From: Ruania albidiflava DSM 18029 | GTDB lineage: Bacteria > Actinomycetota > Actinomycetes > Actinomycetales > Beutenbergiaceae | Direction of reading: 5' to 3' | NCBI RefSeq assembly: GCF_000421225.1 | Contig: NZ_ATWL01000015.1 | Coordinates: forward strand, 1-64,000 | DNA length: 64,000 nucleotides | Shown here: positions 44,961 to 62,657 of the stretch, one piece after another | Layout: each line of letters starts with the position of its first letter | Numbering within the stretch: position 1 is the first letter of the stretch | Made by a program: the position numbers and the translations under genes | The notes under the pieces: generated by a model | The model's database searches: none | What the model was told of the DNA's origin: nothing | Seen by the model: only the letters and a program-made list of their open reading frames with translations

Positions 44961-44966
44961 TATAGT
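44961..44966 (+). promoter_or_regulatory. Predicted -10 of leaderless fdhA
   Basis: TATAGT is 6 nt upstream of ATG 44973, with no ribosome site, so translation likely starts on the 5' end of the transcript. No clear -35 is visible; TTGCGA at 44932 is too far away. Confidence 0.5.
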
Positions 44967-44972
44967 GGCGCC

Positions 44973-47900
44973 ATGGCACGACGGAGTCCGCTGGAATGGC
45001 CGGTGGTCCGTCAGCTGCGCTCCGGTGATGTGTTCGGGCGCGGTCCGGCGGTCACCTCCCCGACCACCCGTGCGACCACGTCACGCAATGCCACGGCTGA
45101 CCGGATGGTGCAGAGCGTGTGCCCCTATTGCGCTGTGGGCTGTGGGCAGCGGATCTTCGTCAAGGACGAGAAGGTCATCGGCATCGAGGGTGACCCGGAC
45201 TCGCCGATCTCCCGTGGCCGGCTGTGCCCGAAGGGTGCGGCTAGCGAGCAGCTGGTGAACGCGCCGGGCCGGCAGACGAAGGTGCTCTACCGCCCGCCCG
45301 GTGCCCGCGACTGGCAGCCTCTGGACCCGGACACCGCGATGGACATGATCGCCGACCGGTTCCTCGCCTCCCGGCGGCGCACCTGGCAGGACACCGACTC
45401 CCAGGGCCGGGTGCTGCGCCGCACCATGGGCATCGCCTCCCTCGGCGGCGCCACGCTGGACAACGAGGAGAACTACCTCATCAAGAAGCTGTTCACCGCC
45501 GCCGGAGCGATCCAGATCGAGAACCAGGCGCGGATATGACACTCCTCCACGGTTCCCGGTCTGGGAACCTCGTACGGGCGCGGTGGCGCCACGCAGTACC
45601 TGCAGGACCTGGCCAACTCTGACTGCATCGTGATCCAGGGCTCGAACATGGCCGAGTGCCACCCGGTGGGTTTCCAGTGGGTCACCGAGGCCCGGGCGCG
45701 CGGGGCGAAAGTCATCCATGTGGACCCCCGGTTCACCCGCACCACGGCGCTGGCAGACAAGCACCTGCCGATCCGCGCAGGGTCGGACGTGGTGCTCATC
45801 GGCGCACTGATCAACTACGTGCTGGCAAACGAGAAGTACTTCCACGACTACGTGGTGGCCTACACCAATGCCGCCACGCTCGTCGGTGAGGGGTTCCAGG
45901 ACACGGAGGACACCGGCGGGCTGTTCTCCGGGTTCGACCCGGAGACCGGCCAGTACGACCCGTCCAGCTGGGCCTACGCCGAGGCTGAGGGCGGGGCGTC
46001 CGCGCCGGACCGGCACCACGAGCACGGCCAGACCGCTTCCGGGCGGGCCGCCGGGGACACCCACGGCAGCGGCGGTCCTCCGCTGGAGACGGCGCAGGTG
46101 GAGCGGGACGAGACGCTCACCCACCCGCGCAGCGTGTTCCAGATCGTCAAGAAGCACTATGCCCGGTACACCCCTCAGATGGTGGAGCAAGCCTGCGGCA
46201 TCAGCGCCGCAGACTTCGACTACCTGGCCCGGGCGGTCACCGAGAACTCCGGCCGGGAGCGCACCACCGCGTTCGTGTACGCAGTGGGATGGACCCAGCA
46301 CACCCTGGGCGCGCAGTTCATCCGGGCCGCCGCCGTCCTGCAGCTGCTGCTCGGGAACGTCGGTCGCCCCGGAGGCGGGATCATGGCGCTGCGCGGGCAC
46401 GCCAGCATCCAGGGCTCCACAGACATCCCCACGCTGTTCAACCTGCTGCCCGGCTACCTGCCGATGCCCACCGCTGACCAGCACGACGACCTGGACACCT
46501 ACCTGCATGCGATCGCGTCGAAGGAGCAGAAGGGTTTCTGGGCGAACGCGGACGCCTACACCATCAGCCTGCTCAAGGCCTGGTGGGGGCCGGCCGCGCA
46601 CGCGGAGAACGACTGGGCGTTCCACTACCTGCCCAAGCTCACCGGCCCGCACGGCACCTACCAGACGGTGATGTCCATGCTGGAGGACGAGGTGGAGGGA
46701 TACTTCCTCCTCGGACAGAACCCGGCGGTCGGGTCGGCGAACGGGCGGATGCAGCGGATAGGCATGGCCCACCTGAAGTGGCTGGTGGTGCGCGACCTGC
46801 AGATGATCGAGTCCGCCACGTTCTGGAAGGACGGACCGGAGATCGCCACCGGTGAGCTGCGCACCGAGGACATCGACACCGAGGTGTTCTTCATGCCGGC
46901 CGCCAGCCACGTGGAGAAAGCGGGCTCGTTCACCCAGACCCAACGGTTGCTGCAGTGGCGGCACCAGGCGGTGGACCCGCCAGGCGAGTGCATGAGCGAC
47001 CTGCAGTTCTTCTACGAGCTGGGCAAACGCATCCGGGCCAGGCTGATCGGCTCCACCGACGAGCGGGACCGGCCGCTGCTGGACCTGACCTGGAACTACC
47101 CGGAGCTGGCAGGCGGTGAACCGGACCCGGAGGCGGTGCTGGCCGAGATCAACGGGCGCTACCTGAGCGGGGACAAGGCCGGTGAGCCGCTGGCCTCCTA
47201 CACCGAGCTGACCGCGGACGGGTCCACCGAGGCCGGCTGCTGGATCTACACCGGCGTGTACGCCGACGGGGTGAACCAGGCCGCCCGGCGCAAACCCGGC
47301 GCCGAGCAGTCGCAGACCGCACTGGAGTGGGGCTGGGCCTGGCCGTCCAACCGGCGCATCCTGTACAACCGCGCCTCGGCAGACCTGGACGGCAAGCCGT
47401 GGAGCGAGCGGAAGAAGCACATCTGGTGGGACGCCGAGCAGGGCTCCTGGACCGGCCTGGACGTGCCCGACTTCGTGGCCGACCGTGCCCCGGCTGCCCG
47501 GCCGGGTCCGGATGCCGGCGGCCCGGACGCACTCGCCGGGGACGACCCGTTCGTGATGCAGGCCGACGGCAAGGGCTGGTTGTTCGCCCCACGCGGGCTG
47601 GTGGACGGGCCGCTGCCCACCCACTACGAGCCGCAGGAGTCGCCGGTGGCCAACCCGCTGTACCCGCAGCAGCAGAACCCGGCCCGGCTCACCTATCCGC
47701 GCCGGGACAACCTGTCCGCACCGAGCGCCGGGGCACCGGGCAGCGAGGTGTACCCGTACGTGTTCACCACCTACCGGCTCACCGAGCACCACACCGCGGG
47801 CGGGATGAGCCGTTGGCTGCCGTACCTGTCCGAGCTGCAGCCGGAGATGTTCTGCGAGGTCTCCCCCGAGCTGGCCGCCGAGCGCGGGCTGACCGAGTAC

Positions 47901-48308
47901 GGGTGGGCCACGATCGTCTCCGCCCGCGCCGCGATCGAGGCCCGCGTGCTGGTCACCGAACGGGTGCGCCCACTGGACCTGGGCGGGCGGACCGTGCACC
48001 AGGTGGGTCTGCCCTACCACTGGGGGGTGGGCAGCGATGCCGGGGTGACCGGGGACGCGGCGAACGATCTGCTCGGAGTCACCCTGGACCCGAACGTGCT
48101 CATCCAGGAGTCGAAGGCCGGTTCCTGCGACATCCAGCCCGGCCGACGCCCGCACGGGCAGGCGCTGCTCGACCTGGTGGCCAGCTACCAGCAGCGTGCC
48201 GGGCTCGCTGCGGAGACCGGCAACGCCCATCTCACCGATCCCGACCGGGAGCAGGTGGTGCCCACCCCGGCCGAGGACGACCCGGAGCAGGAAGGGTGGC
48301 AGCCGTGA
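44973..48308 (+). CDS. fdhA: Selenocysteine-containing formate dehydrogenase, alpha subunit
   Basis: Oxidises formate to CO2 at a bis-MGD Mo/W centre. The gene must be read through TGA at 45537-45539 as Sec189. The flanking protein is IENQARI-U-HSSTVPGLGTSYGRGG, matching E. coli FdnG around its Sec. A SECIS hairpin follows. The total is 1111 residues. The N-terminal [4Fe-4S] ligands are Cys50, Cys53, Cys57 and Cys85. VGRPGGGIMALRGHASIQGS and the C-terminal molydopterin-binding domain (VFTTYRLTEHHTAGGMSRW) are present. There is no Tat signal: the N-terminus MARRSPLEWPVVRQ lacks the twin-Arg-hydrophobic pattern, so it probably faces the cytoplasm. fdhB and fdhC follow. Confidence 0.95.
45537..45569 (+). 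promoter_or_regulatory. UGA Sec codon and SECIS element of fdhA
   Basis: The in-frame TGA (45537-45539) is followed, 11 nt later, by a 7-bp stem GGTTCCC/GGGAACC (45551-45557 with 45563-45569). It closes the loop GGTCT. The GGUC/U loop is the base-specific SelB contact of bacterial SECIS elements, and E. coli fdhF has the same GGUCU. This makes recoding rather than termination or frameshift the natural reading. Confidence 0.93.
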
Positions 48309-48384
48309 GCCGCCTCCCGCCCGCAGCCTTGGTAGTGGCGTGGCCCTGGACGATGCTCTCGGGCCTCGCAGAGAGGAGGAGCTG

Positions 48385-49512
48385 ATGGGCCAGCTGTTCG
48401 GTCCGACCAACCCTGCCGTCGACGCGGGGTGGCAGCACACCCACCCGCGCAAGGGGTTCTTCACCGACACCTCCGTCTGCATCGGCTGCAAGGCCTGCGA
48501 GGTGGCCTGCAAGGAGTGGAACCACGTCCCCAGCGACCCGGACCCGCAGCTGCTCGGGTCCTCCTACGACAACACCGGCGGGCTCGGTGCGAACACCTGG
48601 CGGCACGTGGCGTTCGTGGAGCAGGACGCCGAGCGGATCGCCCGGGCGCGGCGCAGCGGGCGGGCGCTGGTGGACCTGGGCATGCCGAGCGTGGGGCCGC
48701 CGCCGGGGCGGGGCACAGCCGGGGCCAGCGCTCCCGGTGGCGGCGCCGATGGCTCTGCAGCGGGCGGCGCCGGTGGCTCTACAGGTGGCGCCGATGACTA
48801 CGGCGGCCTGCACGACGCCGCCCGCCTCGGCCCACCGGTCTCCACCGGAGTTCCGGGGGACGGCCCCATCGACACCACTCCCCCGGACACCCCGGAGTTC
48901 CGGTGGCTGATGTCCTCGGACGTGTGCAAGCACTGCACGCACGCCGGCTGCCTGGACGCCTGCCCCACCGGCGCCCTGTTCCGCACCGAGTTCGGCAGCG
49001 TGGTGGTCCAGGACGACGTGTGCAACGGCTGCGGCACCTGCGTGGCCGCCTGCCCGTTCGGGGTGATCGAACGCCGCTCGGACGGCACCGCCGCCCCCGG
49101 TGAGCGCGGGCCGCAGCAGGGCCCCACCCGGGAGGGTGGCATCGCGCAGAAGTGCACCCTGTGCTACGACCGGCTCACCGACGGCCAGCAGCCGGCCTGC
49201 GCGCAGACCTGCCCCACCGAGTCGATCAGGTTCGGCAACCATGAGGAGCTGGTGGCCACGGCGCGGGAGCGGGTCGCCGAGCTGCACGCCCGCGGGATGA
49301 CCGAGGCCCGGCTGTACGGTGCGAACCAGAACGACGGCGTGGGCGGCACCGGGTCGGTGTTCCTGCTGCTGGATGAACCGGAGACCTACGGGCTGCCGCC
49401 GGACCCGCGGGTGCCCACTGCGGACCTGCCGCAGATGTTCTCCCGCGCCGGCTGGGCCGCCGCCGGGATGCTGGCCACGGCAGCGCTGGCGTTCCTGGGG
49501 AGGCGCCGGTGA
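48385..49512 (+). CDS. fdhB: Formate dehydrogenase iron-sulfur subunit
   Basis: The electron-transfer subunit FdnH-like, 375 residues. It holds four ferredoxin-type cluster motifs: CIGCKACEVACKEWN, CKHCTHAGCLDACPTGAL, CNGCGTCVAACPFGV, and CTLCYDRLTDGQQPAC with CAQTCPTES. A single C-terminal helix (AAAGMLATAALAFLGRRR) anchors it to the membrane. Residues about 110-150 form a Gly/Ala/Ser-rich insertion absent from standard FdnH. GAGGAGG precedes ATG 48385. Its stop overlaps the fdhC start. Confidence 0.92.
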   Translation: MGQLFGPTNPAVDAGWQHTHPRKGFFTDTSVCIGCKACEVACKEWNHVPSDPDPQLLGSSYDNTGGLGANTWRHVAFVEQDAERIARARRSGRALVDLGMPSVGPPPGRGTAGASAPGGGADGSAAGGAGGSTGGADDYGGLHDAARLGPPVSTGVPGDGPIDTTPPDTPEFRWLMSSDVCKHCTHAGCLDACPTGALFRTEFGSVVVQDDVCNGCGTCVAACPFGVIERRSDGTAAPGERGPQQGPTREGGIAQKCTLCYDRLTDGQQPACAQTCPTESIRFGNHEELVATARERVAELHARGMTEARLYGANQNDGVGGTGSVFLLLDEPETYGLPPDPRVPTADLPQMFSRAGWAAAGMLATAALAFLGRRR

Positions 49513-50600
49513 GCACCTCGGGGTTCGACAGCTACCGTCCGCCGGAGCCTGCCGGTCGCCGCCGACGCAAGGGCCGCCGCCGCGCCGGACCGTCTCGCGG
49601 CGGCGGCGACGGGTCCCGGGAGATGCCGGTGGTGCCGGACGCCGAGTTCGGCTCCTACTACGGCCGCCCGGTGGTGAAGGCGCCGCCCTGGGAGACCGAT
49701 GTGGCCGCCTACCTGTTCCTCGGTGGGCTGGCCGCCGGGTCCGGGCTGCTCGCCGCAGGGGCGCAGCTGACCGGCCGGGAGGCGCTGCGCCGCAGCACCC
49801 GGCTGGCGGCGATCACCGCGGCGGGGCTCGGTGCCGGTGCACTGGTGCGGGACCTGGGCCGCCCGGAACGGTTCCTGAACATGCTCCGCACGGTGAAGCT
49901 GACCTCGCCGATGAGCGTGGGGTCGTGGATCCTGGCGGGGTTCAGCACCTGCGCCGGAGTGGCCGCTGCCGACGAGGTGGACCGCGCCACCGGCTCGCGG
50001 CTGCCGCTGGGCCGGTTGCGGGGGCTGCTGCGCGGCGCCGGTTCCGCGGCTGGCCTGGGCGCCGGGATGCTGGCTCCCCCGTTGGCGGCCTACACCGCGG
50101 TGCTGCTCTCCGACACCGCCGTGCCCACCTGGAACGAGGCCCGGGAGGAGCTGCCGTTCGTGTTCGTCTCCTCGGCGAGCCTGGCCGCGGGCGGACTGGC
50201 GATGATGACCACCCCGGTGGCGCAGGCAGGCCCGGCGCGGGTGCTGGCGGTGGTCGGCGCTGCCGGGGACCTGGTCGCCACCGAGGTGCTGGAGCGCCGG
50301 ATGGACGAGACTGTGGTGGAGACCTTGTACCAGGGCCGCCCGGGCAGGTACCTGCAGGTGAGCAAGGTGCTGGTCGCCGCCGGCGGGGTGGGCGCGCTGC
50401 TGGCGGGCCGGTGGCGCGCGGCCGGGGCGCTCTCCGGGGCCGCGCTGCTGACCGCCTCAGCGCTCACCCGGCTCGGCTACTTCGAGGCGGGCCTGACCTC
50501 GGCGAAGGACCCGAAGTACACGGTGGAGCCGCAGAAGCGCCGGCTGGCCGAGCGGCGCCGGCGCGGCATCACCGACGACTCGATCACCACCGTCGAGTAG
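49509..50600 (+). CDS. fdhC: NrfD-type membrane subunit of formate dehydrogenase
   Basis: A 363-residue polysulfide reductase/NrfD-family quinone-interacting membrane protein with some eight helices. GTG 49509 overlaps the fdhB stop (GTGA). A basic N-terminal tail (RRRRKGRRRAG) precedes ETDVAAYLFLGGLAAGSGLL. RDLGRPERFLNMLRTVKLTSPMSVGSW is the family's central signature. No haem-ligand His pattern of FdnI-type cytochrome b is present. It would pass formate electrons to menaquinone. A large hairpin follows. Confidence 0.9.
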   Translation: MSTSGFDSYRPPEPAGRRRRKGRRRAGPSRGGGDGSREMPVVPDAEFGSYYGRPVVKAPPWETDVAAYLFLGGLAAGSGLLAAGAQLTGREALRRSTRLAAITAAGLGAGALVRDLGRPERFLNMLRTVKLTSPMSVGSWILAGFSTCAGVAAADEVDRATGSRLPLGRLRGLLRGAGSAAGLGAGMLAPPLAAYTAVLLSDTAVPTWNEAREELPFVFVSSASLAAGGLAMMTTPVAQAGPARVLAVVGAAGDLVATEVLERRMDETVVETLYQGRPGRYLQVSKVLVAAGGVGALLAGRWRAAGALSGAALLTASALTRLGYFEAGLTSAKDPKYTVEPQKRRLAERRRRGITDDSITTVE

Positions 50601-50619
50601 TTCCAGGGGCCCCACCCGT

Positions 50620-50681
50620 TCGCCAACGCTCTACTGTGCGGCGTGAATCGGTCCAGCAGCCGCAAAGGAGAGCGTTGGCGA
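50620..50681. terminator. Two-tier hairpin between fdhC and selD
   Basis: TCGCCAACGCTCT at 50620-50632 is perfectly complementary to 50669-50681. Inside it, TGCGGC (50637-50642) pairs with GCCGCA (50659-50664). It lies between convergent fdhC and selD and probably ends both transcripts. Confidence 0.7.
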
Positions 50682-50713
50682 TGGGCAGGGCGGGCGGGCT
50701 GGTGGGGTGGGGC

Positions 50714-51730
50714 TCAGCGGACCTGGATGCCGGTTCCGGCCACGGTGTGCCCGATCACCGGGTGCCCGGGCAGCTCCCCGACCACCAGCAGCCCGCCGGA
50801 GGTCTGGGCGTCGGCGAGCAGCACCAGGTCCTCCTCGGTGATACCGATCCCGGTGGTCAGGTGCGGGCGCACCCAGTCCAGGTTGCGGCGGCTGCCACCG
50901 GGCACGAACCCGTCGGCGAGCGCGGTCAGCGCGTCGGCGAGCACCGGCACTGCGGCCCGCTCGACCACCGCCCCCACCCCGGAGGCCCGGCACAGCTTGT
51001 GCAGGTGCCCGAGCAGCCCGAAACCAGTCACATCGGTTGCTGCTCTGAGCCCCAGGTCGACGGCGGTCGTTGCGGCGCCAGCGTTCAGCCGGGTCATCGA
51101 GGTGGTCGCCTCGGCGAAGATCTGCCCGGTGGCCTTGTGCCGGTTGTTCAGGATGCCCACCCCGATCGGCTTGGTCAGGGTCAGCGGCAGGTCCGGCTCG
51201 GCAGCGTCGATACGCAGCAGCTTGTCCGGGTGGGCCACTCCGGTGACGGCCATACCGTACTTGGGCTCCGGATCGTCGATGGAGTGCCCGCCGATCACCG
51301 GGCAGCCCGCCTGGGTGGCGATGTCCAGCCCGCCGCGCAGCACCTCGGTCATCAGCTCCAGCGGCAGCCGCTCCCGGGGCCAGCCGAGCAGGTTGATCGC
51401 CACCACCGGGGTGCCACCCATGGCGTAGACGTCCGAGAGCGCGTTGGCGGCGGCGATCCGGCCCCAGTCGTAGGCATCATCGACCACCGGGGTGAAGAAG
51501 TCGGCGGTGGAGAGCACCGCGAGGTCCTCGCGCACCAGCACAGCGGCTGCGTCGTCGCCGTCGTCCAGGCCCACCAGCACCCGGGCGTCGGTCCCGCCGA
51601 CCTGACCGGTGAGTGTGCTGACCGCGTCCTCCAGCTCCCCCGGCGGGATCTTGCACGCGCACCCACCACCGTGGGCGAAAGAGGTCAGCCGTGGCTGGTC
51701 CAGATCGTCCCGCACCGCTGCTGCCACCAT
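50714..51730 (-). CDS. selD: Selenide, water dikinase (selenophosphate synthetase)
   Basis: Makes selenophosphate, the selenium donor for Sec-tRNA, from selenide and ATP. The product has 338 residues. The active-site loop is GGGCACKI with Cys24 and Lys27, so it is the Cys and not the Sec form. LSTADFFTPVVDDAYDWGRIAAANALSDVYAMGG, GGHSIDDPEPKYG and the C-terminal Gly-rich GGLLVVG segment are typical. GTG 51733 directly before ATG 51730 is an equally possible start. It is convergent with fdhC and shares the selenium island with tRNA-Sec, selA and selB. Confidence 0.95.
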   Translation of the reverse strand: MVAAAVRDDLDQPRLTSFAHGGGCACKIPPGELEDAVSTLTGQVGGTDARVLVGLDDGDDAAAVLVREDLAVLSTADFFTPVVDDAYDWGRIAAANALSDVYAMGGTPVVAINLLGWPRERLPLELMTEVLRGGLDIATQAGCPVIGGHSIDDPEPKYGMAVTGVAHPDKLLRIDAAEPDLPLTLTKPIGVGILNNRHKATGQIFAEATTSMTRLNAGAATTAVDLGLRAATDVTGFGLLGHLHKLCRASGVGAVVERAAVPVLADALTALADGFVPGGSRRNLDWVRPHLTTGIGITEEDLVLLADAQTSGGLLVVGELPGHPVIGHTVAGTGIQVR

Positions 51731-51739
51731 CACGCGAGT

Positions 51740-52294
51740 CTAGCCAAGCAGGGCTCGTGCAGCAGTGGTGAGCTGCTGGAGATCGGTCTCGGTCATCGGC
51801 TCTCCGGTGATGCCACGGCGGTGCAACAGCGTCCCGACCACCAGGTCCACGATCAGCAACGCCCGGGCGGTCGGTACCGCCAGCGCCTGCTCCAGGCCGC
51901 GGCGGTACGGCTCCTGCAGCTGCGTCCGCAGCAGCCGGCGCAGGTCGGGGTCACTGACAGCCTCGGCGAACACCCCGGCGAACGCCGCGGCGACGCCCGG
52001 CAGCGCGACCCGGTCAGCTCCCCAGCGCACCAGGGCCGCCAGGTTCTGCCTCGGCTCGCCGGCCACCGGCGGCAGCGGCCCGAATGCGGACACCAGCGCG
52101 GCGGTCACCAGCGTCCCCTTGGACGACCAGCGGCGGTAGATCGTGGTCTTCGCAGTACCGGCGGCTGCAGCGATCCGATCCAGGGTGGCACCGGCGTACC
52201 CGAGCTCGTGCACCGTTCGCAGTGTGGCGGCGAGCACCGCAGGGTCGACGTCGACGCGGGGGCGGCCGGGGCTCCGGTGCGGCTCGGCTGTCAT
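51740..52294 (-). CDS. TetR-family regulator
   Basis: A 184-residue regulator with RTVHELGYAGATLDRIAAAAG then AKTTIYRRWSSKGTLVTAAL as the helix-turn-helix. The C-terminal dimer/ligand domain is short and of the TetR_C_16-like type. It is divergent from an alpha/beta hydrolase gene with a 30-bp palindrome in between, so it likely represses that gene and itself. It lies 6 nt upstream of selD on the same strand, so selD may be partly transcribed with it. Confidence 0.9.
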   Translation of the reverse strand: MTAEPHRSPGRPRVDVDPAVLAATLRTVHELGYAGATLDRIAAAAGTAKTTIYRRWSSKGTLVTAALVSAFGPLPPVAGEPRQNLAALVRWGADRVALPGVAAAFAGVFAEAVSDPDLRRLLRTQLQEPYRRGLEQALAVPTARALLIVDLVVGTLLHRRGITGEPMTETDLQQLTTAARALLG

Positions 52295-52315
52295 ATCGCC
52301 AGCCTACCCGCTTGT

Positions 52316-52345
52316 GCTACCGTCAGTATCGAAACTGTAGGTAGC
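52316..52345. promoter_or_regulatory. 30-bp palindromic operator of the TetR-hydrolase pair
   Basis: GCTACC-gt-CAGT-atcgaa-ACTG-ta-GGTAGC pairs at 12 of 15 positions. It sits midway between the divergent starts (22 and 20 bp away). The direct repeat GTATCGAAAC/GTAGCGAAAC partly overlaps it. Confidence 0.7.
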
Positions 52346-52364
52346 GAAACCTGGAGGAGCGCTC

Positions 52365-53315
52365 GTGTCCCGTGCTGCCCATCCGCCGCTGGGTGTGCGA
52401 CTCGTCTACGGGCTGCGCCCGCAGCCGGACTTTGCCGCACTCTCCGACGAGGAGCTTGCCGAGCTCGGCCGGGCCCAGAACGAGGTGGTGACCTCTCCGG
52501 CGGCTCGGCTGATCACCGGATGTCCTGCGCTGGGCAGCCGGGTGACATGGACGACGGTGGCCCTGACCGACCGGCAGATCCCGGTCCGGGTGCACCGTCC
52601 CCGTCGCAGCGGCACCGGCCCCCTTCCCCTGGTGCTGCACGTGCACGGCGGTGGCTACAGCGGCACCGCTGTACAGTGCGACTGGCTGACCAGCCACCTC
52701 GCCGCGCGCCTGCCCGCTGTCGTGGTCTCAGTAGAGCACCGCCTCCTCGGCCCGGGGGTCTCGATGGCGGCAGCGGCCGATGATGTCCTCAGCACACTGG
52801 TACAGGTGCGGCAGCACGCCTCCACCTGGGGGGTGGACCCGGACCGCGTCGCACTGGTAGGTGAGAGCGCCGGCGGCACGATGACCGCACTGGCCGCAGA
52901 GCGCTCGCCGTGGCTGCGCGCTCAGGTGCTGGTCAACCCGTGCCTGGACCTCACCGCCGCTGCACTGGACTACCCCTCGATGACCGAGCATGCGCACACG
53001 CCGACGATCAGTGCGGCCGAGGTCCAGCGGTTCTGCCGGCTGGCCGCACCCGCGGGAACGGATGCCCGCGCGGTGTCACCACTGACCCGCGCGGAGACTG
53101 CCACACTCCCCAGCACGTTGCTGGTGGTGCCAGCACTGGATCCGTTGGCCGACCAGGCCCGCACCTACGCCGCTCGCGTGCGGCCTACCCAGACCCCCGT
53201 GCGGCTGCTGGAGATCGAGCGAGCAGGGCATGCGTTCCTGAGCATGCCGCATCTGGTGCCCTCGGCCTACCGGGCACGGCGAGCGATCTGTTCCTTCCTG
53301 CACGCAGCGCTCTGA
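52365..53315 (+). CDS. Alpha/beta hydrolase of the HSL (hormone-sensitive lipase) family
   Basis: A 316-residue esterase-type enzyme. The oxyanion motif HVHGGGYSGT, the nucleophile elbow VGESAGGTM, the acid in LLVVPALDPLADQ and the catalytic His in IERAGHAFLSMP are visible. GTG start with CTGGAGGAG upstream. The substrate is unknown; small acyl esters are usual. It is probably induced through the divergent TetR. It separates selD from tRNA-Sec and has no known selenium role. Confidence 0.9.
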   Translation: MSRAAHPPLGVRLVYGLRPQPDFAALSDEELAELGRAQNEVVTSPAARLITGCPALGSRVTWTTVALTDRQIPVRVHRPRRSGTGPLPLVLHVHGGGYSGTAVQCDWLTSHLAARLPAVVVSVEHRLLGPGVSMAAAADDVLSTLVQVRQHASTWGVDPDRVALVGESAGGTMTALAAERSPWLRAQVLVNPCLDLTAAALDYPSMTEHAHTPTISAAEVQRFCRLAAPAGTDARAVSPLTRAETATLPSTLLVVPALDPLADQARTYAARVRPTQTPVRLLEIERAGHAFLSMPHLVPSAYRARRAICSFLHAAL

Positions 53316-53347
53316 CCGAGCTGGCCGCTGCTAGGCTCGCCGCGCAA

Positions 53348-53443
53348 GGAGGCGTCTGGGTTCCTGGTGGGCCCCCCGGTCTTCAACACCGGTGAGACCG
53401 AGCACCTCGGTCTGGCGGGTTCGATTCCCGTCCGCCTCCGCCA
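53348..53443 (+). tRNA. selC: tRNA-Sec (anticodon UCA)
   Basis: A 96-nt tRNA with encoded CCA. The 5' acceptor GGAGGCG pairs with CGCCTCC (53433-53439), followed by G and CCA. The anticodon stem is CCGGT/ACCGG with loop CTTCAAC, giving UCA at 53383-53385. A long variable arm (AGACCGAG/CTCGGTCT) and the T-loop GTTCGATTC are present. The eighth acceptor pair (U53355 with C53432) is a mismatch, while a sixth T-stem pair can form, so the 13-bp total may be split 7+6 instead of 8+5. It lies 18 bp before selA. Confidence 0.93.
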
Positions 53444-53461
53444 CGTGCGAAGGAGGTGCCG

Positions 53462-54859
53462 GTGACCGAGCCAGTCGACCGCGGCGGCCCCAGCCACGGT
53501 GGCACCCCCGAGGTACCGGGCACGGCCGCCGCCGACCCGCGCCGCCGCATCCCGCGTACCGACCATCTGCTTGCGCTGCCCGAGGTGACCGCCGCGGCGC
53601 AGCGGCTCAGCGCACCGACCGTCCGCGACCTGGCCCGCGCCGCACAGGACCGGGCCCGCCGCGGCGAGATCCTGCCGGAGGAGGTGCCGGCCGCCCTCCG
53701 GGAGGCACTCACCCACCGGCGCGCCACCGCGCTCACCCCGGTGCTGAACGCCACCGGCGTGGTGGTGCACACCAACCTGGGCCGCGCCCCGCTGTCCGCC
53801 GCCGCCACCGAGGCGCTCATCGCCGCGGCGGGGTACGTGGACGTGGAGCTCGACCTGGACACCGGCGTGCGGTCCCGGCGCGGCCGCGCCACCCGGGCCG
53901 CCGTGCTGGCCGCCTGCCCGGCCGCCGAGGACGCCCTGGTGGTGAACAACGGCGCCGCAGCGCTGGTGCTGGCGACCACGGCGCTGGCGGCGGGCCGGGA
54001 GGTGGTGGTCAGCCGCGGTGAGCTGATCGAGATCGGTGCCGGCTTCCGGCTGCCGGACCTGATCGCCTCGACCGGTGCCCGGCTGCGGGAAGTAGGCACG
54101 ACCAACCGCACGCACCTGACCGACTACACCTGCGCCGTCGGCCCGGAGACCGGCTGCCTGCTCAAGGTGCACCCGAGCAACTTCCGCGTGCACGGGTTCA
54201 CCGCCGAGGCGACCCTGGCCGAGCTGCGCACGCTGGCCGACGAGCACCGTCTGCCGCTGGTGGCCGACCTGGGATCCGGTCTGCTCGCCCCGGACCCCGC
54301 ACTGCCGGACGAACCGGATGCGGCCTCGGCACTGGCGGCCGGTGCCGACCTGGTGGTCGCCAGCGGGGACAAGCTGCTCGGCGGGCCGCAGGCGGGGCTG
54401 CTGCTCGGCCGGGCGGAGGTCATCGAGCACCTGGCGCGGCACCCGTTGGCCCGGGCGGTGCGGGCGGACAAGCTGGCCCTGGCGGCGCTGGAGGCCACCC
54501 TGGTGGCAGGCCGGGTGCCGGTGGTCGAGTTCCTGCACGCGGACCCGGAGGTGTTGCGGTCCCGGGTGGAGCGTCTCGCGGCAGCCGTCGACGGCGGAGC
54601 ACAGGTGGCGGTGGTCCCGCACCAGGGCAGGGTCGGGGGTGGGGGTGGGCCGGGTGTGCCGTTGCCTGGCTGGGCCCTGCGGCTCCCGGAGTGTGCGGCA
54701 CGCGCGTTGCGGCTCGGGGATCCTGCGGTGCTCGCGCGGGTGCACGACGGCGCCTGCCTGCTGGACCTGCGCTGTGTGCCGGAGACCGAGGACGAACAGG
54801 TGGCGGCCGCGGTGCGGCGGGCGCTGCACCCGGCCCTGTCCCCGTTGGAACACCCTTAG
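53462..54859 (+). CDS. selA: L-seryl-tRNA(Sec) selenium transferase
   Basis: A PLP enzyme converting Ser-tRNA(Sec) to Sec-tRNA(Sec) with selenophosphate. The product has 465 residues. The N-terminal RRRIPRTDHLLALPEV, NATGVVVHTNLGRAPLS, VVNNGAAALVLATTALA, EIGAGFRLPDLIASTGA and VADLGSGLL are typical. The PLP Lys is Lys304 in SGDKLLGGPQAGLL. GTG 53462 has AAGGAGG 5 nt upstream. A GTG six bases earlier overlaps that site and is rejected. tRNA-Sec precedes and selB follows. Confidence 0.95.
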   Translation: MTEPVDRGGPSHGGTPEVPGTAAADPRRRIPRTDHLLALPEVTAAAQRLSAPTVRDLARAAQDRARRGEILPEEVPAALREALTHRRATALTPVLNATGVVVHTNLGRAPLSAAATEALIAAAGYVDVELDLDTGVRSRRGRATRAAVLAACPAAEDALVVNNGAAALVLATTALAAGREVVVSRGELIEIGAGFRLPDLIASTGARLREVGTTNRTHLTDYTCAVGPETGCLLKVHPSNFRVHGFTAEATLAELRTLADEHRLPLVADLGSGLLAPDPALPDEPDAASALAAGADLVVASGDKLLGGPQAGLLLGRAEVIEHLARHPLARAVRADKLALAALEATLVAGRVPVVEFLHADPEVLRSRVERLAAAVDGGAQVAVVPHQGRVGGGGGPGVPLPGWALRLPECAARALRLGDPAVLARVHDGACLLDLRCVPETEDEQVAAAVRRALHPALSPLEHP

Positions 54860-54915
54860 CGCATTCGAACCTGGCTACAAAGGGGTTCGAATGCGCCACG
54901 CTGGTTCGAATGCGC
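54859..54915 (+). repeat. One-against-two inverted repeats between selA and selB
   Basis: GCGCATTCGAACC (54859-54871, starting on the last base of the selA stop) is perfectly complementary to two identical copies of GGTTCGAATGCGC, at 54884-54896 and 54903-54915. Only one hairpin can form at a time. It may be an attenuator or processing site controlling selB, or a remnant of a repeat element. TTCGAA is the common core. Confidence 0.7.
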
Positions 54916-54942
54916 GACCCGGGGAGGACTGGAGGCCGAACA

Positions 54943-56766
54943 GTGGCGAGCTTCGTGGTGGCGACCGCCGGGCACGTGGACCACGGCAAGTCCGCGCTGG
55001 TGCGGGCGCTGACCGGGATCGAGCCGGACCGCCTCGCCGAGGAACGCCGCCGCGGGTTGACCGTGGACCTCGGGTTCGCCTGGACCGAGCTGGTGCCCGG
55101 CTGCGACGCGGCGTTCGTGGACGTCCCCGGGCACGAACGGTTCCTCGGGAACATGCTCGCCGGGCTGGGGCCGGCGCCGGTGGTGTGCTTCGTGGTGGCC
55201 GCGGACGAGGGGTGGCAGGAGCAGTCCAGCGACCACCGGGACGCGGTGGCAGCGCTGGGTATCGACACCGGTGTGCTGGTGCTCAGCCGCGCCGACCGGG
55301 CCGATGCTGCCCGCGTGGCGGAGGTGGTCGCGCGGGCGCGGGAGGAGCTGGCCGGGACCGGGCTGGCGGATGCGCCCGCGGTGGTGACCTCGGCGGTGAC
55401 CGGTGCGGGGCTCGACCGGCTCCGGGAGGCGCTCGCCGGGGTGCTGTCCGGGGCGCCGGCGCCGGACCCGGGCGCGCGCGTGCGTTTGTGGGTGGACCGG
55501 TCGTTCACGATCGCTGGGGCCGGCACTGTGGTGACCGGCACCCTGGCCGCGGGCACCGTGCGCACCGGTGACCGGCTGACCGTGGCCGGCGTCCCAGACT
55601 CGGTAGCGGTACGCGGGCTGCAGAGCCGGGGCGAGGCGTGCGAGCTCATCGGGCCGACGAACCGGGTGGCGGTCAATCTGCGCGGCGTGGAACCGCAGCT
55701 GGTGGCACGGGGCTCGGCGCTGCTCACCCCGGATGCCTGGCCGGAGACGACGGTGGTGGACGTGCGCCGGTGCACCGGCGAGGCGTTCGGCAGCTCGTCC
55801 GGGCACGTGAACGTGCACGTGGGCACTGCGGCGCTCGCCGGGCGGTTGCGCCCGCTGGACGGCGAGCACGCCCGGATCACGCTGTCTCACCCGGCACCGG
55901 TGGTGCTCGGGGACCGCCTGGTGCTGCGCTCTGCCGGGAGCCGGCGGGTGCGGGCGGGCGTGGTGGTGCTGGACGCCGACCCGCCGGTGCTGTCCCGGCG
56001 GGGTGATGGCCGGCGGCGGGCTGCGGTGCTCGACGCCCGGCAGTCGCCGGCACCGGGAGGCCCGGCGGCAGCGGCGGATCTGGTCGCCGAGGCGGCCCGG
56101 CGTGGTGCCGTGCGGGTGGAGCAGCTGGTGCGGCTCGGGCTGGTGCCCGCGCGCGCGGTGGCACCTCCGGCGGGGGTGGTGGCGGCCGGCGACTGGTGGG
56201 TGGCTGAAGGGGCCCTGGAGCAGTGGGGGGCACAGTTGGCCGAGCTGGTGGCCCAGGTGCACCGGCGCGACCCGGTGGCCGCCGGCCTGTCCAGTGGTGC
56301 AGCCGTGGCTGCGCTGGGGCTGCCCGCCGCGGAGCTGCTGGCCGAGGTGGCGCAGGCCGCAGGCGTCGAGGAGCACGACGGGCACCTGGCAGAACCCGGG
56401 CACCGCCACGATCTCGGCCCGGCGGAAGAGGCAGTGGCCGCGCTGGAGGCCCGGCTGCGGGCAACCCCGTTCCAGGCACCGGAGAGCGCCGACCTGCTCG
56501 CACTGGCTCTGGGACCGCGGCAGCTGGCCGCCGCCGAGCGCGCCGGACGGTTGCTGCGCCTGCCCGGTGAGGTGGTGCTGCTACCCGATGCCCCGGCGCG
56601 GGCGATGCGCGAGCTGGCGGGGCTGCCGCAGCCGTTCACCGCGGCCGAGGCGAAGGCGGCCTTGGGCACCACTCGCCGGGTGGTCATCCCGCTGCTGGAG
56701 CACCTGGACGCCCGCGGCTGGACCCGCCGACGTGACCCGGTGCATCGCGAGGTCGTGCGCGGCTGA
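54943..56766 (+). CDS. selB: Selenocysteine-specific elongation factor
   Basis: Brings Sec-tRNA to the ribosome at UGA when bound to a SECIS. The product has 607 residues. G1 is GHVDHGKS (10-17), switch I RRRGLTVDLGFAW, G3 DVPGHERFLGNML, G4 LSRADRADA. The EF-Tu-like beta-barrel domains follow, then about 200 residues of winged-helix repeats (LRATPFQAPESADLLALALG, TAAEAKAALGTTRRVVIPLL) that bind the SECIS. GTG 54943 has GGAGG upstream. A longer frame inside selA is rejected. A hairpin follows the stop. Confidence 0.95.
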   Translation: MASFVVATAGHVDHGKSALVRALTGIEPDRLAEERRRGLTVDLGFAWTELVPGCDAAFVDVPGHERFLGNMLAGLGPAPVVCFVVAADEGWQEQSSDHRDAVAALGIDTGVLVLSRADRADAARVAEVVARAREELAGTGLADAPAVVTSAVTGAGLDRLREALAGVLSGAPAPDPGARVRLWVDRSFTIAGAGTVVTGTLAAGTVRTGDRLTVAGVPDSVAVRGLQSRGEACELIGPTNRVAVNLRGVEPQLVARGSALLTPDAWPETTVVDVRRCTGEAFGSSSGHVNVHVGTAALAGRLRPLDGEHARITLSHPAPVVLGDRLVLRSAGSRRVRAGVVVLDADPPVLSRRGDGRRRAAVLDARQSPAPGGPAAAADLVAEAARRGAVRVEQLVRLGLVPARAVAPPAGVVAAGDWWVAEGALEQWGAQLAELVAQVHRRDPVAAGLSSGAAVAALGLPAAELLAEVAQAAGVEEHDGHLAEPGHRHDLGPAEEAVAALEARLRATPFQAPESADLLALALGPRQLAAAERAGRLLRLPGEVVLLPDAPARAMRELAGLPQPFTAAEAKAALGTTRRVVIPLLEHLDARGWTRRRDPVHREVVRG

Positions 56767-56779
56767 CCTGACCCGTCGC

Positions 56780-56831
56780 GCTCGCGTGGAAGGTTGCTGC
56801 TGTCATAGCACCACCAACCGTCCACGCGAGC
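56780..56831 (+). terminator. Hairpin terminator after selB
   Basis: GCTCGCGTGGA (56780-56790) pairs with TCCACGCGAGC (56821-56831). GGTTG (56792-56796) pairs with CAACC (56815-56819) after a single mismatch, giving a 17-position stem with an 18-nt loop. It is located 13 bp after the selB stop. Confidence 0.7.
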
Positions 56832-56892
56832 TCGCATCCAGCGCCCTAGGTTGCTAGTATGCCGTCTAAGTAGCGAGGCGAAGGGTGGAGCG

Positions 56893-58326
56893 ATGGCGGA
56901 CGGTCCTGGCGACGGGGCGGTGCAGGGCTCTCGCCGCGCGCTCCTGCTGGCGCTGTCGTTGATCTCGGTCGAGTTCCTCGCCGGGATGCAGAGCTACCTG
57001 TCCCAGACGGTGCTGCCGTTGGCGGCAACCGAGCTGCACGGCCAGTCCCTCTACGGTCCCGTGAACGCTGCAGCGCAGGCCCCGATGTTCTTCATGCTGC
57101 CCCTCGGTGCGTGGCTGCTGTCCCGGTACCGGGTCGGGCACCTGATGCTGGTGTTCACCGTGGTGACCGTTGCCGGTGCCACGCTGTGCGCGGCCGCCTC
57201 CTCGATGCCGGTGTTCCTCCTCGGCACCGCAGTGCGTGCGATCGCGTCCGGGGCGCTCGCGACCGTGAGCATGGGAGCGATCAGCCGCGGCCTGCCGGAG
57301 CGGTACCGACAGCTGGTCCTGGCGGGCATGTCCGGCATCTGGGTGCTGTCCTCCGTCCTCGGGCCAGGCTATGCAGCCGGGGCGGCCGCGCTGGTCGGGT
57401 GGCGGTGGGCGATGGTGCTCTACCTCCCGCTGCTGCTGCTCAGCCGGACGATGATCGCCCGGCACATGCCCGAACGTGCCGAGCAGAAGGCCGAGGAGCC
57501 GGTGCCGTGGCGTTGGTCGTGCCTCCTGGCGCTCGGCGCCGTCCTGCTCGCCGCGCCCGCGGGTCGGTGGTCCGCCGCGGCCGTGGTGGCCGGAGCCATC
57601 CTGATGCTGGGCTCAGCGGTGCGGCTGCTGCCCACCGGAACGCTGCGCGCGCGGGCGGGCCGGCGGGCCGGCCTCGCAGCGCTGCTGGTCGTCGCCGCGG
57701 TCTACTTCGGTGCCACGATGGTGCTGTCGGTCGTGGCTCACGACGGGTTCGGCCTCGCTACCGGTCAGTTCGGCTTCATCATCGCTGCCCCGGGGCTGCT
57801 GTGGGCCCTCGCCGGCCTGTGGACGGGCTCGCATCCGGCGCTGGACAGCATCCCGTTCCGCCGCCGTGCCGTACCTGCAGGGGTGGCGATGACCCTCGGC
57901 ATCCTGGTGCTCGGCGGCACCACGCTGCTGGCCGAGAGCGCGACATCGGCGTTCGTCGGTCTGGTGGTCGGGGCGGGCCTGGCCGGTGTGGCGATGGGGT
58001 CGATGTATCCGGACCTGCTCGGCCGGTGCCTGCGGACGCCGGCCGTCGATGACGGGATCTCGCAGGACCAGATGGCGGCCGCCCTGGTGCTCACGGAGTC
58101 GGTGGGCATGGCCGTGGCGACCACTGCCGCCTACTCCTGGCTCGGCACCGGCTGGGGCGTCGTCGACGGTCCCCTGCAGCGGTCCCAGATCCTCTATCTG
58201 GCGCTGGCGGCGCTGTGCCTGGTCATGGTCCAGCGGTTGTGGGCGGCAGCGCGTGCGGGCACCGGCGCGCGGGATGCCGTTCTCACGGCCGGTGGAGCAC
58301 AGCGGCCAGCGCGCGGGCGGCGGTGA
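56893..58326 (+). CDS. MFS transporter
   Basis: A major facilitator of 477 residues with 14 hydrophobic segments. It starts with ALLLALSLISVEFLAGMQSY. LPLGAWLLSRYRVGHLMLVF is the loop 2-3 region, and GALATVSMGAISRGLPERYR is consistent with a DHA2-like drug/proton antiporter. ATG 56893 is preferred, with GGTGGAG upstream. TAGTAT at 56855-56860 is a possible -10. Substrate unknown. Its 3' end overlaps the convergent LLM gene by 44 bp. Confidence 0.85.
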   Translation: MADGPGDGAVQGSRRALLLALSLISVEFLAGMQSYLSQTVLPLAATELHGQSLYGPVNAAAQAPMFFMLPLGAWLLSRYRVGHLMLVFTVVTVAGATLCAAASSMPVFLLGTAVRAIASGALATVSMGAISRGLPERYRQLVLAGMSGIWVLSSVLGPGYAAGAAALVGWRWAMVLYLPLLLLSRTMIARHMPERAEQKAEEPVPWRWSCLLALGAVLLAAPAGRWSAAAVVAGAILMLGSAVRLLPTGTLRARAGRRAGLAALLVVAAVYFGATMVLSVVAHDGFGLATGQFGFIIAAPGLLWALAGLWTGSHPALDSIPFRRRAVPAGVAMTLGILVLGGTTLLAESATSAFVGLVVGAGLAGVAMGSMYPDLLGRCLRTPAVDDGISQDQMAAALVLTESVGMAVATTAAYSWLGTGWGVVDGPLQRSQILYLALAALCLVMVQRLWAAARAGTGARDAVLTAGGAQRPARGRR

Positions 58327-59162: not shown

Positions 59163-61685
59163 TCAGCGCGCGGGCACGTTGGCCAGGTGCTGCGCCAGGT
59201 AGCGCCCGGTGCTGCTCCGCTGGTCGCCGATGAGCTGCTCCGGGGTCCCGGTGGCGACGATCCGGCCGCCATCGGCCCCGCCACCCGGGCCCAGATCGAT
59301 GATGTGGTCCGCGTTGGCGATCACGTCGAGGTCGTGCTCGATCACCACCACGGTGCCGTCCTGGTCCAGGAGCCGCTGCAGGACGCCGAGCAGCACCCGC
59401 ACGTCCAACGGGTGCAGACCGACCGTAGGTTCGTCGAACACGAACAGGGAGTGCTGCTGCCGGCGGCCCAGCTCGGAGATGAGCTTCAGGCGCTGCGCCT
59501 CCCCGCCGGACAGGGTCGGGGTGGCCTCGCCGAGAGTCAGGTACCCGAGGCCGACGTCACCCAGCGCGTCCAGCCGGGTGCGCACCTTGGGCAGGTCACC
59601 GACATGTTCGACAGCCTCCGACACCGTCATCGCCAGCAGATCAGGCAGCGAGAGCGCACCCGTGCCCGCTGCCGACGGGCGACGGTGGTCGGCCGCAGCG
59701 GGCCCGTACCGCAGACCGTTGCAGTCCGGGCAGACCAGGTCCACGTCCGGCAGGAACTGCACGTCCAGGGTGATCTGCCCGGTGCCCTCGCAGCGCGGGC
59801 AGCGCAGCGACCCGGTGTTGTAGGAGAAGTCACCGGCGCCAAGGTTGGCGGCGCGGGCGGAGTCCAACCGGGCGTAGGTGCGGCGCAGCTGGTCGAGCAC
59901 ACCGGAGTAGGTGGCCACCGTGGAGCGGACGTTGATGCCGATCGGGGTGGCGTCCACCACGTTCACCCGCCCGATCCCGCCTCGGTCCACCCCGGTGACG
60001 TGCGCTGGCACGGAGGCTGCGCCGTCATCGGTGAGAGCCGGCACGAGACTGTCCAGCACGAGCGTGGTCTTCCCGGACCCGGACACGCCGGTGACCACGG
60101 TGAGCCGGCCTCGAGGGATGGCCACGTCCAGGGCGTGCACGGTGTGCACCGGTGCGGTCTGCAGCCGGATGGCCCCTCGGTCGAACGTCTCCTCGGCCCG
60201 GGCCGGGGTGCGCACCAGGACCTGCTCGCGGCCGTTGAGGAAGCCGGCGATGAGCGAGGCGTCGTTGCCGTCCAGGTCCGCGGGGGTTCCGGTGGCCACG
60301 ATGGTGCCGCCGTCCCGGCCGGAGCCGGGGCCCACCTCGATCAGGTGGTCCGCGCGGCGCAGCACCATCGGGTCGTGATCGACCAGCACCACCGAGTTCC
60401 CTTCGGCCAGCAGGTCCTCGATGACCCCCTGCAGGCCGGTGATGTTCGACGGGTGCAGTCCGATCGAAGGTTCGTCCAGGACGTAGAGCACGCCGGTGGT
60501 CTCGTTGCGCACCGCCCGGGCCAGCTGCACCCGCTGCCGCTCCCCGGTGGACAGGCTCGAGCCGGCCCGGTCCAGGGCGAGGTAGCCCAGGCCCAGGTCG
60601 AGCAGCCGACGGGCCGTGGCCTGCAGCGTGCGGACGAGCACGTCGGCCATCGGGCGCAGCTCGCGCGGGAGCGTTCCGGGCACTGTCTGGGCCCAGGTGC
60701 TGAGGTCCGTCAGGGTCATCGCGGTGACATCGGCGAGGTTCAGCCGGTCGATCTGCGGCGCCCGGGCCGCCGGGGAGAGCCGGGTGCCGTGACAGCTGGG
60801 GCAGGTGTGCTCGGTGAGGAAGCGGCTCACACGAGCCAACCGCCGACCATCGGTGGCCCGGCGCAGCTCCTCTGTCACGGTCAGGCGTGCGTTGCGAAAG
60901 GTGAAGTCGAGCTCGTGCAGCCCCTTCTTCGAGGTGACCGTGATGTGCTTCTTCTCCTCCGGCCCAGCCAGGACGACCTGCTTCTCCTCCTCGGTCAGCT
61001 CCCGCCAGGGCACGTCGGTGCGCACGCCGAGCTCACGAGCGATCTGCGGTTGCACGTTGAACCCGAACATCTGCCACGGGATCACCGTGCCCTCCTCCAG
61101 GCTCAGGCCCGGGTCCCGGATCAGCGTCGCATCGTCCACCTCCCGCACGGTGCCGGTGCCCTGGCAGGTGGGGCAGGCCCCGCCGGAGTTGAAGGCGAGG
61201 TCCTCCGCACCGGGTGCGAAGAAGGTGGCACCGCACTCGGGGCAGCGGATCGGCTCCTCTGCGGCGACCTTCAGCGTCGGCTCGTTCCGGTGGCCGTTCG
61301 GGCACTGGTGTGCGGCCAGCCGGGAGAACATCAACCGCACCACGTTCAACAGCTCGGTGGCGGTGCCGAACGTGGACCGCACCCCCGGCACCCCCGGCCG
61401 CTGCCGGAGCGCGAGCGCCGCTGGGACGTGTCGCACCCGGTCCACCGCGGCCCGGGGCGCCTGTGCCATCCGGCGGCGGGTGTAGGTGGACAGCGCCTCG
61501 ATGTACCGGCGCGAGCCCTCGGCGTACAGCACGCCCATCGCCAGCGACGACTTGCCCGACCCGGAGACACCGGCGAGGGCCACCAGCGCGCCGAGCGGGA
61601 CGTCCACGTCCACGTTCTTCAGGTTGTGCACGCGCGCGCCGCGCACCTGGATCACGGCGGGCTGCTCGTGGCGGTCGGCGTCCAT
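59163..61685 (-). CDS. UvrA-like excinuclease ATPase (UvrA2-type)
   Basis: An 840-residue tandem ABC ATPase of the UvrA family, about 100 residues shorter than housekeeping UvrA. Walker A motifs are GVSGSGKSSLA (first) and GVSGSGKTTLV (second). ABC signatures are SSLSTGERQRVQLAR and PTLSGGEAQRLKLIS. Zinc Cys sets CPECGATFF, CPTCQGTG, CPSCHGTR, CPRCEGTG and CPDCNG are present. The UvrB-interacting region is reduced, as in UvrA2/DrrC-like proteins linked to drug resistance or DNA protection. ATG 61685 has GGAGG upstream. It neighbours the MFS gene across LLM. Confidence 0.88.
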   Translation of the reverse strand: MDADRHEQPAVIQVRGARVHNLKNVDVDVPLGALVALAGVSGSGKSSLAMGVLYAEGSRRYIEALSTYTRRRMAQAPRAAVDRVRHVPAALALRQRPGVPGVRSTFGTATELLNVVRLMFSRLAAHQCPNGHRNEPTLKVAAEEPIRCPECGATFFAPGAEDLAFNSGGACPTCQGTGTVREVDDATLIRDPGLSLEEGTVIPWQMFGFNVQPQIARELGVRTDVPWRELTEEEKQVVLAGPEEKKHITVTSKKGLHELDFTFRNARLTVTEELRRATDGRRLARVSRFLTEHTCPSCHGTRLSPAARAPQIDRLNLADVTAMTLTDLSTWAQTVPGTLPRELRPMADVLVRTLQATARRLLDLGLGYLALDRAGSSLSTGERQRVQLARAVRNETTGVLYVLDEPSIGLHPSNITGLQGVIEDLLAEGNSVVLVDHDPMVLRRADHLIEVGPGSGRDGGTIVATGTPADLDGNDASLIAGFLNGREQVLVRTPARAEETFDRGAIRLQTAPVHTVHALDVAIPRGRLTVVTGVSGSGKTTLVLDSLVPALTDDGAASVPAHVTGVDRGGIGRVNVVDATPIGINVRSTVATYSGVLDQLRRTYARLDSARAANLGAGDFSYNTGSLRCPRCEGTGQITLDVQFLPDVDLVCPDCNGLRYGPAAADHRRPSAAGTGALSLPDLLAMTVSEAVEHVGDLPKVRTRLDALGDVGLGYLTLGEATPTLSGGEAQRLKLISELGRRQQHSLFVFDEPTVGLHPLDVRVLLGVLQRLLDQDGTVVVIEHDLDVIANADHIIDLGPGGGADGGRIVATGTPEQLIGDQRSSTGRYLAQHLANVPAR

Positions 61686-61748
61686 CGTGCGGTCCTCCAG
61701 GCGGGTGAGCGGCGAGCTGCTGACCAACCTACGCCCCGGTGAACCGGG

Positions 61749-62597: not shown

Positions 62598-62657
62598 GGC
62601 AGCGACGGTACACCGGCCTTGACAGCCCGGACAGCCCAGCAGGAGGCTCGTCGCACG

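Follow-up and report, generated by a model that had tools for sequence, protein, structure and literature searches.

A predicted selenocysteine-dependent formate dehydrogenase gene cluster and its decoding machinery in Ruania albidiflava DSM 18029

Known clusters and the Ruania locus

Formate dehydrogenases whose alpha subunit contains selenocysteine (Sec) are encoded in several bacteria close to the genes that decode Sec, and a gene cluster of this kind in Ruania albidiflava DSM 18029 (positions 44973-56766 of the 64,000-nucleotide stretch of contig NZ_ATWL01000015.1 that was analysed, hereafter the window) is the subject of this report. In the Pseudomonadales, selA, selB and selC are clustered with fdhA and horizontal gene transfer has been proposed (PMC1794560); the one selenoprotein, FdhA, is encoded near its machinery as in the window, but the phylum is a different one and selD is not named in the operon in the text available. 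Horizontal transfer of selenium traits has also been described in actinobacteria, with Arthrobacter recipients and sel genes close to fdhA (PMC5029168). Corynebacterium aurimucosum has a UGA-containing fdnG (fdnG-fdxH) together with selD, selC, selA and selB in one region (PMC2830990), a likeness to the window by gene content, and Streptomyces incarnatus has the formate dehydrogenase FDH-O and selABCD (PMC4498112). Such clusters are present in Actinomycetospora chiangmaiensis, in which selenium-dependent removal of formate was measured; its Sec-FDH1 cluster likewise encodes a membrane-bound FdhABC with Sec and is listed with selA and selB, but SelD is encoded outside the cluster and there are three formate dehydrogenase systems, whereas the window has one such enzyme and selD within the block (PMC7176365). 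The arrangement in the window is genuine and is familiar from related bacteria, such clusters being in print, and by its sequence the block is almost certainly the actinobacterial Sec formate dehydrogenase cassette in its common form, carried on the chromosome.

The fdhA gene (44973-48308, forward strand) encodes the molybdopterin-containing alpha subunit. Its frame opens with ATG 44973 and runs to 48308 with a single in-frame UGA (45537-45539) at codon 189, and the initial annotation, which had placed Sec189 at this UGA in an otherwise open frame, was exact to the base. With the UGA read through, FdhA scores 1895.6 bits against NF041513, the profile of the actinobacterial formate dehydrogenase (cut-off 1400), and a profile search found both the Fe4S4 and the molybdopterin domains, which together place it in the formate dehydrogenase family; on this family membership, FdhA probably oxidises formate. 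On the same strand follow fdhB (48385-49512; PF13247 above cut-off), encoding a 4Fe-4S subunit with a hydrophobic stretch at its C-terminus, and fdhC (49509-50600; PF03916, 59 bits, cut-off 25.8), encoding an NrfD-type membrane anchor. The selenophosphate synthetase gene selD (50714-51730, reverse strand; TIGR00476, 376 bits) is of the Cys type, with Cys in place of Sec (GGCACK), and its start is assigned to ATG 51730, GTG 51733 being in frame too. The forward strand then carries selC, encoding tRNA-Sec(UCA) (53348-53443; ARAGORN and Rfam, 72.8 bits), selA, encoding the L-seryl-tRNA(Sec) selenium transferase (53456-54859; TIGR00474, 432.5 bits; start GTG 53456, with GTG 53462 possible as well), and selB, encoding the Sec-specific elongation factor (54943-56766; TIGR00475, 285.3 bits; winged helix PF09107; start GTG 54943 behind GGAGG, with ATG 54910 also in frame). 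The selD, selA and selB products all score above the curated family cut-offs, and with the tRNA the full set of genes by which Sec decoding is recognised is present. The neighbours that had been claimed for fdhA (selD, tRNA-Sec(UCA), selA and selB) were all identified by ARAGORN, Rfam and curated profiles, and the sequence backs the view that the locus encodes both a Sec-dependent formate dehydrogenase and what is needed to decode Sec. The accessory sulfurtransferase gene fdhD (61749-62600, reverse strand, above the curated cut-off) occurs once in the genome at E <= 1e-20.

By analogy with known families, on which the chemistry, the SelB-SECIS contact, the electron path and the topology proposed here are modelled, SelD would make selenophosphate, with which SelA would convert Ser-tRNA(Sec), the selC product, to Sec-tRNA(Sec). 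SelB-GTP would carry the Sec-tRNA(Sec) and, by its winged-helix end, grip the Sec insertion sequence (SECIS) 11 nt behind UGA 45537, so that the ribosome would insert Sec189 at the metal site of FdhA; the cofactor would be matured by FdhD, and electrons from formate would pass by way of the 4Fe-4S subunit FdhB and the NrfD-type anchor FdhC to the membrane. Residues 3-4 of FdhA are RR. The active site of FdhA probably faces the cytoplasm, because the RR is not conserved (RW in the related genome G003) and is not followed by a hydrophobic signal stretch on inspection of the sequence.

The in-frame UGA and its SECIS hairpin

TGA stands at the Sec position in all 113 sites matched among the loci retrieved, which, with some genes retrieved twice, amount to 90 distinct stretches of 120 bases. 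The UGA of fdhA lies at the conserved position of a selenoprotein family. No Cys version of the NF041513-type fdhA, which had been named beforehand as the counter-evidence to look for in relatives, was found among these sites with a search pattern that also allowed Cys. Downstream of the UGA, after an 11-nt spacer, is a 19-nt bacterial SECIS hairpin (45551-45569, forward strand) with a stem of 7 bp (arms 45551-45557 and 45563-45569) and the loop GGUCU, as the initial annotation had it; loop and spacing are presumably like those of the E. coli fdhF element. Its codons were compared across 94 fdhA genes, reduced to 87 distinct ones with that of the window included, taking synonymous usage in the rest of the same genes as the reference. 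Codons +5, +7 and +9 after the UGA, which make up the stem and loop, all depart from the usual synonymous usage: codon +5 is GTT in 84 of the 87 genes (versus 4.9% of Val codons elsewhere), codon +7 is GGT or AGT in every one (87/87), and codon +9 is GGA in 77. The strongest departures are at codons -1 and +5, on a scale for which the background of 221 positions outside -6 to +12 has a mean of -0.01 and a standard deviation of 0.32. Over the 87 genes 606 of 609 stem pairs are formed, a count reached by none of 1000 shuffles (maximum 603). In a covariation set of 28 selected SECIS sites, which give 25 distinct rows, pairing extends to 98.3% of cells, five cells in two pairs have double changes, and the covariation score is 0.181 versus 0.115 for shuffled sets, none of 500 shuffles being as high. 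Comparison reveals a constraint at the RNA level just downstream of the UGA that folding energy alone would miss; on this comparative evidence the hairpin at 45551-45569 is a real SECIS, and Sec is probably inserted into FdhA at UGA 45537.

Several results weigh against the reading of this locus as a Sec formate dehydrogenase cassette. The folding energy of the hairpin is ordinary (z -0.59), 50 of 200 shuffles of the 54-nt stretch folding as well, and folding of the single sequence was dropped as uninformative for SECIS; of 500 shuffles, 16 reached the count of double-changed pairs (2) and 156 the number of pair types, with four of the seven rows hardly varying. FdhB scores 167 bits against TIGR01582, below the cut-off of 334.7, and a scan of 50500-57000 for sigma-70 promoters found none. 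A hairpin no stabler than its shuffles would also suit the explanation that UGA 45537 is a true stop, owing to gene decay or a sequencing error, with the hairpin there by chance; but TGA at all 113 sites, the codon bias on the stem, a pair count above the shuffle maximum and the complete sel machinery make that explanation scarcely credible.

Two further departures lie outside the stem and loop of the SECIS. Codon -1 of the UGA (45534-45536) reads ATT or ATA in all but one of the 87 distinct genes, ATC making up 90% of Ile codons elsewhere; because this codon is outside the hairpin, the 5' side of the Sec UGA may obey a context rule of its own. Codons +19 and +20 (55-60 nt past the UGA, beyond the hairpin), which are among the 221 background positions, are also low on the codon scale and are enriched for the uncommon CAA followed by TCA or ACA. 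The RNAalifold consensus of codons -6 to +15 did not extend the hairpin by pairing with codons upstream of it.

Distribution, gene order and mobility of the block

Presence of the block was surveyed in 59 genomes including that of R. albidiflava (G000), of which 24 form the family subset; the tRNA-Sec threshold was set at 60 bits by the analyst's choice (family cut-off 47), and matches of 47-52 bits were dropped. The tRNA-Sec and selD were found in the same 19 genomes, selA in 18, SelB above cut-off in 16 and the NF041513-type fdhA in 16, each copy with one TGA and never without tRNA-Sec and selD. The initial annotation suggested that the block is gained or lost as a unit, which holds largely: tRNA-Sec, selA, selD and this type of fdhA are all absent from 40 of the 59 genomes and from 20 of the 24 in the family, the parts being found there in G000, G003, G007 and G009 only. 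It does not hold strictly. The NF041513-type fdhA is lacking in two genomes that do have sel genes (G027 and G033); selA is on a separate contig in G039 and 11 kb from selB in G045, and fdhA is 26 kb from selD in G047 and on other contigs in G036 and G038; and the fdhA of locus L107 is flanked by 10 kb each way in which no sel gene lies. Among the incomplete cases, SelB of G009 and G033 is under the cut-off, selA and selB are absent from the 1060-contig assembly of G053, and the fdhA of G007, truncated at the edge of a contig, escaped the presence search, its start being seen at the end of L165.

The initial annotation also regarded fdhA as the single target of the machinery. A covariance model built from the 28 fdhA SECIS sites, which would miss divergent SECIS elements, was used to score 150 candidates per genome (150 of 5269 first-look candidates in R. 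albidiflava). It returned a single site at E below 1e-9 in R. albidiflava (G000), where no other reached E <= 1, and likewise a single one in both G003 and G009, but nothing better than E 0.33 in five non-carriers and in G007, the fdhA of which is cut at the contig end. There are four PF00384 matches in R. albidiflava, with an in-frame TGA in fdhA only. The single-target claim is borne out within the limits of this fdhA-trained model and the PF00384 check, other selenoprotein families not having been searched singly.

Gene order was counted in the 80 nearest named fdhA loci. The order of the window, fdhABC-selD-selC-selA-selB with selD reversed, is complete in 45, and another order, selB-selA-selC-selD beside fdhABC, is found in 18; of the rest, one breaks off behind selA, another has selC in reverse, and 15 have fewer genes, mostly on short contigs. 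In Janibacter melonis (L111:19373) selC is on the strand opposite to selA and selB, and in G030 (L130) about 5 kb separate selC and selA, some of the intervening genes resembling arsenic resistance genes by eye. Two loci with the selB-selA-selC-selD order (L044 and L046) have an FdhA that falls among mycobacteria and a selD and selA that fall with a distant lineage, a further departure from strict inheritance as a unit; there the target gene seems to have been kept while its machinery was swapped.

The same block is found on a self-transmissible element. A tblastn search of PLSDB with FdhA matched 145 records, the closest being pYA7-1a (NZ_CP110115.1) of Arthrobacter sp. YA7-1, a plasmid of 130 kb typed by PLSDB as conjugative (MOBP, MPF_T), which carries the whole block, selC and SECIS included, between an integrase and a Tn3 transposase. 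Its gene order, UGA and SECIS are as in the window and its FdhA is 79.2% identical; it differs from the window in being a conjugative plasmid, in having the block beside a Tn3 transposase, and in lacking the TetR-hydrolase insert described below. A literature search, consisting mostly of titles and the starts of abstracts, found no mention of a cassette-bearing conjugative plasmid. A Tsukamurella plasmid typed as non-mobilizable also carries the block.

These plasmids, the absence of the block from five of the eight members of the genus and the published transfers into Arthrobacter (PMC5029168) would be consistent with a mobile island that arrived recently in this genome, but that explanation is unlikely. 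The three carriers in the genus (G000, G003 and G007) form one clade in an rpoB tree of 23 of the 24 family genomes (100/100), apart from G009, and have in common the methyltransferase on the left of the block and the type of fdhD. In the FdhA tree the window and G003 group with G009 of the same family (95/94), as they do in the selD+selA tree (88/89, below the starred threshold). The block genes have a guanine-plus-cytosine content of 0.70-0.77, against 0.708 for the window; no integrase or transposase was found among 18 family-searched proteins beside the block (attachment sites were not searched for); and a search of phages gave no megablast match. Because of the clade, the shared flanks, the trees, the base composition and the lack of mobile genes among those 18 proteins or of a phage match, the block is probably at least as old as the three-carrier clade. 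The rpoB tree implies two changes in all; the block may have been present ancestrally in the family and then been lost, or may have been gained twice.

The five non-carrier members of the genus have an FdhD 57-58% identical to that of the window, adjoining a UGA-free gene of the FdhF/YdeP type (TIGR01701). Across the family this type is found in 16 of 20 non-carriers versus none of four carriers (Fisher p 0.007, uncorrected for kinship), and G008, G013, G016 and G022 have neither it nor the NF041513-type fdhA. No clean empty site was found in non-carriers, because the neighbours of the left methyltransferase, present in G004 and G005, are unlike those in the window.

The TetR-hydrolase insert, the selA-selB junction and flanking genes

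The gap between selD and selC is 1615 bp in the window, the second largest of 90 loci (window included; a locus in which selD has the opposite orientation was left out), the median being about 95 bp. It contains a TetR-family regulator gene (tetR, 51740-52294, reverse strand, assigned by family profiles) and a divergent gene for an alpha/beta hydrolase of the hormone-sensitive-lipase type (52365-53315, forward strand; PF07859, 127.5 bits; the listed NCBIfam matches all under cut-off), with the near-palindrome CAGTATCGAAACTG (52324-52337), a possible TetR operator, in the divergent gap. The same selD-selC gap in G007 (L131:5450-6180) is occupied by two other genes, one with a PIN domain and one that is Phd/YefM-like but below cut-off. 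A search of 99 other loci at E <= 1e-8 matched the hydrolase nowhere and tetR just twice, at 33% and away from the gap (L060 and L072); no conserved association of the pair with sel genes was seen, which fits the initial description of the pair as having no obvious selenium role. The pair most likely came in as a passenger between the divergent sel promoters.

At one edge of the insert is the -10-like TAGACT (51737-51742, reverse strand) 6 nt before the selD ATG, its TAG being the stop of tetR; G003 and G007 have TAGGGT with equal spacing. At the other edge is TAGGCT preceded by TGC (53332-53337, forward strand), an extended -10-like element 10 nt before selC that is the same in G003 and G007, 35 of 90 loci having the pattern TGnTAnnnT no more than 45 nt from selC. 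Because the sigma-70 scan was empty, the assignment of these -10 elements rests on position and on the three genomes. Upstream of fdhA, the -10-like hexamer TATAGT (44961-44966, forward strand), 6 nt before the ATG and outside the region scanned for a consensus, suggests a promoter of the leaderless type.

The overlap of the tetR stop with the selD -10 element, the 32 bp from the hydrolase stop to selC, the lack of any terminator-like site in a scan of 50500-57000, and the near-palindrome in the divergent gap raise the alternative that the pair now regulates the sel genes, with tetR and selD in one transcript and read-through from the hydrolase feeding selC-selA-selB. This is doubtful, as both sel -10-like elements are retained at the insert edges, the hydrolase is without a match in the other loci, and the gap takes different cargo in G007.

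Right after selA, a junction hairpin (54859-54915, forward strand) has one left arm (54859-54871) and two right arms of the same sequence (54884-54896 and 54903-54915), with each of which the left arm could pair. In the window, in G003 (L122:8768-8805) and in G007 (L132:4308-4345) the stem here measures 13-15 bp, with one compensatory change, a pair that is C-G in the window and G003 being G-C in G007; in the window z is -2.76, 2 of 200 shuffles being as good. A stem of at least 10 bp was found in four of 80 selA-selB junctions, those of the three genus carriers and the unrelated L127, and the arm occurs nowhere else in the 194 fetched loci (L011 and L015 being the same two loci again). The other copy in G007 (L133) has no junction hairpin. 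To judge from its sequence, the hairpin is possibly a clade-specific attenuator, processing site or terminator. The G007 contigs L132 and L133 have two different selB copies with an LLM oxidoreductase gene near each, a duplication or a strain mixture.

Beyond the block, a UvrA-like protein (59163-61727), under the TIGR00630 cut-off and perhaps a paralogue, has a similar gene on G007 contig C245, with an LLM gene. Divergent from fdhD is a frame for a BisC/TorA-family molybdoenzyme (62658-64000 and beyond, L194), which looks frame-shifted or truncated because its match ends at profile position 476 of 772 while the frame continues.

The locus is a compact cassette for the 21st amino acid whose presence varies between close relatives, sisters carrying a UGA-free FdhF/YdeP-type gene, and the conjugative plasmid with the whole cassette provides a direct vehicle for transfers previously inferred from trees. 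A more speculative proposal, which we consider improbable, is that the selD-selC gap tolerates the insertion of small regulated modules, the insertion here tying the Sec machinery to a TetR ligand through tetR-selD and hydrolase-selC-selA-selB transcripts while the clade-specific hairpin sets SelB relative to SelA. If true, a cassette for genetic-code expansion, plasmid-transmissible in Arthrobacter, would have come under the control of an unrelated small molecule.

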